Part shown: positions 59,533-62,328 of the stretch, piece by piece | Numbering within the stretch: the stretch's first letter is position 1 | How the letters are laid out: each line of letters opens with the position of its first letter | Notes under the pieces: generated by a model | What the model saw: only the letters and a program-made list of their open reading frames with translations | What the model was told of the DNA's origin: nothing | The model's database searches: none | Source of the DNA: Bryobacteraceae bacterium | Lineage (GTDB): Bacteria > Acidobacteriota > Terriglobia > Bryobacterales > Bryobacteraceae | Assembly: GCA_023384675.1 (NCBI GenBank) | Contig: JAHDVK010000026.1 | Coordinates: 1 to 64,000, forward strand | Length of the DNA stretch: 64,000 nucleotides | Reading direction: 5' to 3' | Translations under genes and position numbers: made by a program

Positions 59533-59561
59533 CGTATTGATTTGAGTAGGAGTTGCGGCCC

Positions 59562-60515
59562 ATGAACAAGAACATCGCATTGATCGTGCTGGGCGGGATG
59601 ACGGCGGCGGCTCTGGGCTGGCTGGCCGCGTCGGCGAACCGCGATCAGCCGGCGCCGGTCATTATCGTGCAAGCGCCTCAGGCGCCCGCCATGGCGGTGA
59701 CGCCCGCGCCCGCACCCGAGCCTGAGCCTGTTGCCGCGAAGCCCGCGCCCGTGCCGCGTCCCGCCGCCCGGCCTGCCGCCAGGCCGGCCCCCGCGCGCCC
59801 CGCCCCCGCCGCGAGACCCGCTCCGCCGCCGGAACCGGCCCCTCAGGAACCCGAACCCGCGCGCGAAGTCCGTATCACGGGAGCGGAGCCGGCCGAAGCC
59901 GCGCGAACCGCCAGCGAGGAACCCGTGGCCGAATCCCGGCCCGCCGCGCCACCCATCTTTCCCGTCCAGAAACTGCCGCCTCCGCCCCCGCGTTCGATCA
60001 CCATTCCGGCGGGCACGCTCATCACGGTCCGATTGGCTCAGGCCATTGAATCAGGAAGCAATAGCGAGGGCGACGCCTTCACCGCCACGCTCGATCAGCC
60101 GCTGGTGGTGGATGGTCTGGTGATCGCCGAACGCGGTTCCCGGCAGCAGGGCAAGGTCTCCTTCTCCGAACGCTCGGGCCGCGTGAAAGGCCGGGCCGCT
60201 TTTGGCCTGGAACTGGTGGCTTTGAATACGGCCGACGGCCAGCGGGTCGACCTCCATACCGAAATCTTCCGGCATGAAGCCGAATCCGGCGCCGGACGCG
60301 ATGCCGCCAAAGCAGGCGTGATGGCCGGCATCGGCGCGGCCATCGGCGCCATGGCCGGGGGCGGCCGTGGCGCGGCCATCGGAGCCGCCGCCGGCGGCGC
60401 AGCAGGCGCGGGCACCGTCATGGCGACCCGCGGCCAGGAGGCCCGCCTCCCCGCCGAGACGCGCATCTCATTCCGGCTCACCCAGCCCATCACGCTGACC
60501 GAAAAATTGGACTGA
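59562..60515 (+). CDS. Exported Pro/Ala-rich protein with glycine-zipper segment
   Basis: 317 residues. N-terminal signal or anchor (MNKNIALIVLGGMTAAALGW LAAS), then a long low-complexity Pro/Ala/Arg stretch (residues about 45-120), a beta-rich domain starting SITIPAGTLITVRLAQAIES with GKVSFSERSGRVKGRAAFGL, and a C-terminal glycine-zipper (AGIGAAIGAMAGGGRGAAIG onward). The middle domain resembles a small Rickettsia-like/SLT outer-envelope module. The Pro-rich part likely spans the periplasm. Function unknown. GGAG at 59547-59550 precedes ATG 59562 by 11 bases. Confidence 0.8.
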   Translation: MNKNIALIVLGGMTAAALGWLAASANRDQPAPVIIVQAPQAPAMAVTPAPAPEPEPVAAKPAPVPRPAARPAARPAPARPAPAARPAPPPEPAPQEPEPAREVRITGAEPAEAARTASEEPVAESRPAAPPIFPVQKLPPPPPRSITIPAGTLITVRLAQAIESGSNSEGDAFTATLDQPLVVDGLVIAERGSRQQGKVSFSERSGRVKGRAAFGLELVALNTADGQRVDLHTEIFRHEAESGAGRDAAKAGVMAGIGAAIGAMAGGGRGAAIGAAAGGAAGAGTVMATRGQEARLPAETRISFRLTQPITLTEKLD

Positions 60516-60693
60516 CGCCGCGATTTGTTCGCACAAGCCCGCCGGGTGCAAGGGGGCAGGCCAGCCCGGGACACTCTCGGAAGTCCGCCCTAACCCACTA
60601 ATTCTGATAGGCTACGGCCCTGCGTTGCCCCCGGCTGACACCGGGGGCTCAAGCGGGGTCCAATCCGGCGGCATGGTTTACGAGCAGCCCGGG
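60516..60693. other. Intergenic stretch, no gene recognised
   Basis: 178 bases between the glycine-zipper stop and the inverted-repeat element, with no credible open frame. It contains the perfect hairpin at 60627-60648 annotated separately; apart from that I see no promoter or repeat. Confidence 0.5.
60627..60648. repeat. Perfect 8-bp hairpin, possible dispersed intergenic repeat
   Basis: GCCCCCGG and CCGGGGGC flank the loop CTGACA. There is no U-run on either strand, so this is not a standard terminator. Wording of this kind is familiar to me from intergenic repeats in Acidobacteria and Planctomycetes, but that is memory and needs a search. It lies 46 bases from the MITE-like element. Confidence 0.4.
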
Positions 60694-60873
60694 ACAGCCT
60701 GACCCGCCCCAGCGCACTTTCCTACGAAATCTTAAATGGTTGAAAATAAACGAACTTCCGCCGCACCAGGCACTCACGATTATACCGACGGCCGCGGCAA
60801 CCGGACTATCGCTGCGGAGAAGCGCCTTTGAATGACTTAGATCCAAAAAGTGCCCTGGGACGGGTCAGGCTGT
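60694..60873. mobile_element. MITE-like element, 180 bp with 27-bp terminal inverted repeats
   Basis: Left end 60694-60720 (ACAGCCTGACCCGCCCCAGC then GCACTTT) and the reverse complement of 60847-60873 match at 25 of 27 bases. The interior, about 126 bases, is A+T-richer and encodes nothing. No clear target-site duplication flanks it. The size, long inverted ends and lack of coding capacity are those of a miniature inverted-repeat element or an insertion-sequence relic. Its right end is 15 bases from the stop of the foreign-looking gene at 60889. Confidence 0.72.
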
Positions 60874-60888
60874 TGCGATGAGCGCCGA

Positions 60889-62328
60889 CTATTCCAAGCG
60901 ACCGCTTGGCTCCCATTCGTCTCGGGCATGATAACAGTTCCAAAAGGTCTCCCGCAGGAGGGTATCGTTTGTTTGTAGGCGAACCGTCGAATTGGTTATC
61001 CGCTCTGTAACACGAAAGTAGCCCTGCCTTGGTTGCGATAAGCTATATTCCATTCGATTCTCGAAAATTCGATACAGTAATGTGATCACGTCCTCGACAG
61101 AGCAGCATGCCATCGCTCCTACTGCAACGCCAGAGGAAAACTGAATGAGTCGACTTAGCGGATGAATCTCGCTAAAGAATCGGCGACGAACGTCATCGTC
61201 GCAATAGAAAATCACGGGCTTCCCAAGGCTGAGGGCCATAGCAGCCTCGGCATCCTTCCCGTAGCTGTCGCCAGATCCTGCCGTATACACCAAGACCTTC
61301 GCGCACTTGACCATTAGGCATTCCAACAGGCCCTTATCCTCGTGTCCACGTGCCGCACTTAGCGTCGGGTCGAAGAATCGCAGGTTATACGGTGCAAGTG
61401 TATTGTGCGAAAAGATAGCATCACAAGTTTTCGCCATCGTGCGGAACTGGTCACGGTTTCGCATGCTGGTTGCAACGTACACATCTAGATCATTAGCCAT
61501 AGACAGATAAAGCGTCGTATTCTGGAGTGCTGCGGACCTAGATCTTGTAAACTTGCCTCTGATAGTATCGTATTTCTCGCGAAGGGCCTCTTGTGAGGTA
61601 ACTTCATCTTCTAGAATTTCGTCAGTAGAGAAAGCAAAAGCGGATTGCCTTTCGCGAAAGCGTGGATCAATAGCAGCCTCACTAAGAAGGTCCTTCGTGC
61701 GGAGCGGCCCACTGTTTCCACCGTTGCTTAGCTTGAGGAAGGCACCTAAGAGCGCATGCCACAAATCCTCATCGCCGCCATCAGGGGGTTCGAAGGTCTT
61801 ACATGCTTGCTCGGCGATCAGGTACCTGTCGTCTTGCGGTATGCGATTCAATTCAAGCGAGGCTCCTCTTCTAATCATGCCTGCAGTGTCGAATTTTTGT
61901 GAATTGTAGTAACTTTCTATTTCTTCGAAAGAAAGATCACGCAAGACAGAAAATCCATTCCTGATACTTCCGAAGAACATAAGTGAGTCAATGTAAAGCC
62001 TGTAAAGCCCCCATGCAAGCTGATCAATCGTCAGAATGCTTTCGCATTTCGAATAACTATTATCATAATACGGAAGAGCCTCGATATTGTAGATGTGCTT
62101 CGGCACGCTACACCAGTAATATTCGAAGAAACCATCCGACACGCCAGGTTGATGCGAGAGGGCTAGCAATTGGTTAAGAGTTGCTCTGCTAACCGGTTCG
62201 TTGCCGGATGTTGGCGCTTCGAGCTTTCGAAGCCGCTCCCAGACGACCCCCTCACCTGTTGGCGAGAGCCATGAATCGATTCCGCCCGTCTGTCCAGAGA
62301 AGAGTGCAAGCTTTTCGGATATAGGCAT
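60889..62328 (-). CDS. Candidate defence protein: unknown N-region plus deoxyribosyltransferase/TIR-like C-domain
   Basis: 479 residues. Base composition is visibly lower in G+C than all neighbours. Residues 1-270 have no recognised domain: helical, several aromatics and Cys, but no export signal. From 281 the protein shows a Rossmann-like domain: LDVYVATSMRNRDQFRTMAK, YNLRFFDPTLSAARGHEDKG, LLECLMVKCAKVLVYTAGSG and DSYGKDAEAAMALSLGKPVI. The last block resembles nucleoside 2-deoxyribosyltransferases (D-x-G...E-x-x-x-A-x-x-x-GKP), with Glu361 a candidate catalytic residue; TIR and SLOG-type domains share the layout. Such domains in bacteria often degrade or sense nucleotides during phage defence. 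No helper gene is adjacent. Confidence 0.7.
   Translation of the reverse strand: MPISEKLALFSGQTGGIDSWLSPTGEGVVWERLRKLEAPTSGNEPVSRATLNQLLALSHQPGVSDGFFEYYWCSVPKHIYNIEALPYYDNSYSKCESILTIDQLAWGLYRLYIDSLMFFGSIRNGFSVLRDLSFEEIESYYNSQKFDTAGMIRRGASLELNRIPQDDRYLIAEQACKTFEPPDGGDEDLWHALLGAFLKLSNGGNSGPLRTKDLLSEAAIDPRFRERQSAFAFSTDEILEDEVTSQEALREKYDTIRGKFTRSRSAALQNTTLYLSMANDLDVYVATSMRNRDQFRTMAKTCDAIFSHNTLAPYNLRFFDPTLSAARGHEDKGLLECLMVKCAKVLVYTAGSGDSYGKDAEAAMALSLGKPVIFYCDDDVRRRFFSEIHPLSRLIQFSSGVAVGAMACCSVEDVITLLYRIFENRMEYSLSQPRQGYFRVTERITNSTVRLQTNDTLLRETFWNCYHARDEWEPSGRLE

Follow-up and report, generated by a model that had tools for sequence, protein, structure and literature searches.

RAYT-like genes flanked by long inverted repeats were described in 2013 as TIRYT, with gene and repeats together making up a TIRtron (PMC3733652). 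According to the text of that paper, families of the repeats (TIRs) occur singly, as dimers and in groups, and an acidobacterial group is reported; TIR dimers as a kind are already known from that description. In the text of PMC6006769, 20 of the 26 TIRYT from PMC3733652 fall in subclass 2.1, for which the motifs NHVH and YIELNP are listed. The text of PMC8266576 describes single-strand chemistry for IS200/IS605 and cutting at REPs by TnpAREP. Whole REPs or REPINs repeated in tandem along with their flanks have also been published, as the texts of PMC3733652 and PMC3116915 show.

The element reported here lies in a 64-kb stretch of DNA from a Bryobacteraceae bacterium, referred to below as the window. 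It is very probably a decayed, non-autonomous TIR dimer of a TIRtron, with two inverted ends of the form GGGAC-AGCCTGACCC-GTCCC-...-CACTTTT around a non-coding core. The element is multicopy and nearly fixed in length, and the same ends enclose a RAYT-like Y1 (HUH) transposase gene, both here and in the genomes of other acidobacteria. The features are as follows.

60691..60873, no strand assigned: complete miniature element, read as a TIR dimer, from the inverted repeat and the ten-copy alignment; equals 60694-60873 plus the initial GGG of the family
60691..60720, plus strand: left terminal inverted repeat, GGGAC-AGCCTGACCC-GCCCC-(3 nt)-GCACTTT, from the arm comparison and the listing of ends
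60721..60846, no strand assigned: core, non-coding, 50.8% G+C, alignable across the other copies, from the copy alignment
60847..60873, minus strand: right terminal inverted repeat, its outer GGG replaced, followed on the plus strand by TGCGATGAGCG, from the arm comparison and the copy alignment
60874..60884, plus strand: outer border TGCGATGAGCG, common to the borders of C13:18326-18515 and, reversed, G001:C70

The terminal arms, 60694-60720 and 60847-60873, are 27 nt each, complementary at 25 of 27 positions (93%) and separated by 126 nt. When the 64-kb window was scanned for inverted 27-nt arms that match at 23 or more positions and span no more than about 300 nt, a single pair was returned, the element's own, in seven registers, so the arms represent more than chance; together with the further copies described below, the scan rules out a chance palindrome. 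The core has a G+C content of 50.8% against 64.1% for the whole window, and in a list of ORFs of at least 60 aa the sole ORF across the element is a mechanical one of 65 aa (60649-60846, minus strand). The inverted ends and the non-coding, A+T-richer core noticed in the initial annotation are therefore real. Because GGGAC begins the end across the family, the left end is placed at 60691; the right end lacks the outer half of its terminal palindrome, and TGCGATGAGCG comes next. The left and right flanks are dissimilar by eye. No duplication is seen in them by eye, as the initial annotation had also reported.

An alternative outer border, TCAGGCTG-N-TGCGATGAGCG, occurs at three family ends: at 60874-60884 of the window, at about 2005-2015 of L022 and at 1959-1978 of G001:C70. 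The variant border TGCGATGAGCG was traced through 61 genomes. At G000:C32:59799-59818, 20 nt of the alternative border are present without the remainder of the end, and C8:175219 matches nearly and is followed by sequence similar to that at C32; neither site has an Rfam match. A second palindrome, GCCCCCGGCTGACACCGGGGGC, sits immediately left of the element at 60627-60648, with copies also on the flanks of a Y1 gene on C32 (L120, 1944-2763; 177 aa, NHVH, YVLDGQ), the motifs of which resemble class 3 as given in the text of PMC6006769.

The assembly that holds the element (60 contigs) was searched with a 211-base query spanning it; of the 26 matches, query included, nine are long and the rest are single ends or partial. 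Ten full-length copies were aligned, including C13:18326, recovered as two partial matches. Core-to-core length is 178 nt in nine of the ten; the tenth, C13:165744, has altered ends. The nine other copies lie in unrelated places of the genome, with no target duplication visible by eye around them. C50 holds three copies, two of them identical across the compared columns. The window copy shows a mean identity of 75% to the other copies, whereas eight of the others reach 80-85% and C13:18326 stands at 57%; from its value the window copy looks old.

The element is enclosed by convergent ORFs, 59553-60515 on the plus strand and 60889-62328 on the minus strand. Such a location would suit an RNA or DNA structure that is retained between two such genes to terminate transcription or stabilise mRNA, and for which past mobility is irrelevant, and both strands do fold better than shuffled sequences (z -4.2 and -4.6). 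The folding, however, is explained by the inverted arms alone, no intrinsic-terminator-like site was found within the element, and nine further copies sit in unrelated places. Rfam gave no match at E up to 1 across 60400-61100, which rules out a known RNA family. We consider retention as a structure improbable.

The TIR dimer reading is carried by a transposase gene with the same ends. At C13:113659-114605, family ends face each other around an ORF of 236 aa (113765-114475), each end being doubled in tandem (44- and 45-nt spacing). The ORF scores 45.5 bits against Pfam Y1_Tnp (cut-off 23) and 77.6 bits, slightly below the curated cut-off of 80, against NCBIfam REP_Tyr_transpos (NF047646), where the match spans model positions 2-146 of 146. 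An HUH motif, NHIH, and a tyrosine motif, YVERNP, are seen by eye in the translation. This locus, like L125, L145 and L147, thus has a RAYT-like Y1 gene with a long terminal inverted repeat on either side, and the repeats recur elsewhere in the genome as ten dimers and as tandem-doubled ends. At the position of the TIRtron motif GGGGWSAS, the ends carry GGGGACAG in some cases, NGGGACAG in most and other sequences in a few, such as the right end of the window element (by eye). The partner is assigned from shared ends only, since the genome has eight Y1_Tnp matches in total. Among the other Y1_Tnp loci, L028, L029, L031 and L033 have inverted repeats of different sequence on either side, L034 has a weaker inverted pair, and L032 has no flanking inverted repeats. 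The second flank test covered these six; the seventh, L035, has inverted copies of a CCCCGG...CCGGGG palindrome. One of these, L029 (G000:C42, 1258-2350), encodes another Y1 transposase with a different 27-nt end, GGGGTCAAAGACCTCGGTTCCTAAACT, occurring twice per side (127- and 130-nt spacing). The core of the window element has no match to the transposase element outside the ends, and its origin by internal deletion is therefore not established.

Searches of 61 genomes matched the element in four: its own, two of the three others of the genus, and G017, where the match is 25 nt in the core and may be due to chance. An end in G002 is directly followed by part of a transposase (72% identity over 112 aa). 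One G001 end adjoins a transposase fragment on C505 (80% identity over 106 aa) and another, by eye, a truncated transposase gene start on C70. At L122 (G001:C337, 2590-2948), facing ends spanning 359 nt from outer to outer enclose apparent remnants of a transposase gene (by eye), possibly an internal-deletion intermediate between a transposase element and a miniature one. The exact 20-nt end palindrome GGGACGGGTCAGGCTGTCCC was found in 28 stretches among 84,980 species, represented by one genome each; this count is a lower bound, as an exact pattern misses diverged ends. All 28 bear titles of Candidatus Solibacter, Paludibaculum, Terriglobia bacterium or Acidobacteria bacterium. Related transposases (57-73% identity) occur at six of the 28 loci, and those of L125, L145 and L147 are enclosed by paired ends. 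Six more facing end pairs, 199-235 nt core to core (L127, L128, L134, L137, L149 and L152), lie on loci that lack a transposase match. A looser census, allowing two mismatches to a 16-nt pattern, was too unspecific, hitting 98 times where the reversed control hit 53 times. The search for an empty site gave no clean one: the contigs of G001 and G003 stop short of the site, and G002 matches the left-hand genes and nothing further. Carriage by phage or plasmid was considered and set aside, since a plasmid collection lacked the element, a phage collection lacked the transposase element and viral contigs lacked the exact 20-nt palindrome. The copy search in the genome and its relatives, proposed in the initial annotation, thus found the element in more than one copy and matching ends around a Y1 transposase gene, and the MITE-like character suggested there is borne out by the ten full-length copies and by the transposase genes that these ends enclose, both in the element's own genome and in relatives.

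MITEs of DDE insertion sequences are small, have terminal inverted repeats and lack coding capacity. The size and inverted repeats of the element would agree with such an origin if an autonomous DDE partner had been missed and the Y1 gene merely lay between captured ends. Against this, no target duplication is seen by eye at the window copy or at others, the ends accompany related Y1 transposases in several genomes, and no DDE gene was met between such ends, although none was specifically searched for. A DDE origin is highly unlikely.

Y1 transposition makes no target duplication. For a TIR dimer, the transposase would recognise the ends on single-stranded DNA, then cut and rejoin one strand, so that the dimer would be moved in trans; such strand transfer would leave no target duplication. 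Less certainly, action at the outer border of the end may also re-copy 7-15 nt spanning flank and end in tandem. Single-strand chemistry for this family is an inference, and a single-stranded end folds into a weak hairpin (-4.2 and -4.9 kcal/mol, z about -1.6).

The ORF at 60889-62328 (479 aa, 49.7% G+C) has no match in Pfam, NCBIfam or PADLOC. Among 150 genomes from the order, its own included, one other genome matches, weakly and over part of the protein (31% over 86 aa); this near-absence fits horizontal gain. By eye, its C-terminal part may recall nucleoside-processing or sensor domains. The initial annotation proposed that the element may have helped deliver this gene, an idea that finds no support. 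Within the 64-kb window, 12 nt of the end with at most one mismatch match in two places, both the element's own arms, so the gene is not bracketed and the element lies on one side only. Flanks of 1.4 kb were compared on both sides of the nine other copies; 16 of the 18 have 58-67% G+C and two are lower (50% and 54%). This evidence makes the element a bystander to the neighbouring gene.

Short tandem duplications border many ends of the family. A pattern for the end, which misses the altered ends of C13:165744, hit 71 places in 40 sources (L021, L024-L027, L122, L123 and L125-L151 among the loci); removal of one duplicate and six nested ends left 64. The outer test window comprised 37 nt outside plus the first five bases of the end, and control windows came from the same loci. 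A tandem duplication scoring at least 8, with a 7-15-nt unit, occurs on the outer side of 31 of 64 ends against 294 of 12,891 control windows (Fisher 4.9e-33), figures to be read with the facts that the pattern was noticed before testing, that thresholds were set afterwards and that related copies are not independent. On the inner side the count is 1 of 59, with five ends omitted that have a second end close inside. Over 200 rounds of dinucleotide-shuffled flanks, the mean was 2.1 and the maximum 6 of 64. Two further measures agree. The 7 nt lying beyond the last four outer bases are repeated exactly within 28 nt at 24 of 64 ends and at 16 of 2,191 other GGGA sites; for a strict abutting repeat, the figures are 9 of 64 and 3 of 2,574. 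The best-scoring repeat lies outside, not touching the end, in five of the 31. When the test window reached deeper into the end, duplications entered 27 ends, and 26 of these stop within the first six bases of the end; their periods are 7-15 nt, and 8-12 nt in 22 of the 27. By our mapping of loci to records, the 31 duplicated ends come from seven of the ten genomes that yielded ends. The window copy has no outer duplication at either end.

The outer repeats are unlikely to stem from target duplication, or from an insertion whose site already held a tandem array: six elements carry duplications left and right, and in each the two units differ. Even so, the units of C13:113659-114605 agree at 8 of 10 bases (by eye), and in two of the six, C42 and L147, the best repeat on one side falls short of the end.

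For unrelated TIRYT families, 38 transposase loci were fetched (two being second copies) and 31 compared; setting aside one of the element's own family and ten without a score-12 inverted repeat left 20 loci with 40 outer sides. At a score of at least 8, duplications occur on 9 of 40 outer and 1 of 40 inner sides and in 21 of 1,463 control windows; at a score of at least 10, the counts are 7, 0 and 2. Ordinary replication slippage at the end hairpin, with no need of the transposase, would account for the short units (7-15 nt) and draws on a palindrome able to fold, but the hairpin is weak, and being near-symmetrical it should mark both sides, whereas duplications mark 31 of 64 outer and 1 of 59 inner sides. 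That asymmetry could come from selection acting on duplications at the inner side, and we give slippage somewhat less than an even chance. More tentatively, the outer duplications may be footprints of an undescribed TIRYT reaction, in which the enzyme would nick the outer border and, in place of a clean transfer, the border would be re-copied in steps of 7-15 nt, occasionally with the whole end included. If so, this stutter would be a route from one transposase gene to solo ends, tandem ends and miniature dimers. No description of short border duplications was found in the main-text passages covered from the TIRtron and REP literature. If confirmed, these micro-duplications would be a footprint that any model of TIRYT action must explain, and would indicate candidate cutting positions. 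The family adds an acidobacterial member to the little-studied TIRtrons, linked to related transposases in several genomes.

Comparison with known systems rests on the texts cited. Unlike DDE-derived MITEs as defined in PMC3733652, the window element has a Y1 partner and no target duplication by eye. The partner system resembles IS200/IS605 in its Y1 HUH transposase, its subterminal palindromes and the single-strand chemistry to be expected (PMC8266576 and general knowledge), but the ends of the window family are inverted repeats of each other and the transposase is of REP type. The element shares with the REPINs and BIMEs that accompany RAYT genes, as described in PMC3116915, an inverted doublet, short palindromic ends, the lack of coding and a presumed mobilisation in trans by a Y1 enzyme; that paper also reports clusters in tandem that take in the flanks. 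Its dimer is longer than theirs and its copies are few. No GTAG tag is seen by eye at a fixed place in the listed family ends, and the element is not a GTAG REPIN. The nearest likeness is to the TIRtrons of PMC3733652, in a RAYT-like Y1 gene with long inverted repeats and in repeats dispersed singly, as dimers and in groups; their motif GGGGWSAS is near the GGGGACAG that stands in some ends of the element's family. Unlike the TIRtrons described in the text of that paper, the element belongs to a separate end family with a conserved core of about 120 nt; the passages covered there describe no locus-specific duplications on the outside of ends, such as border many ends of this family.
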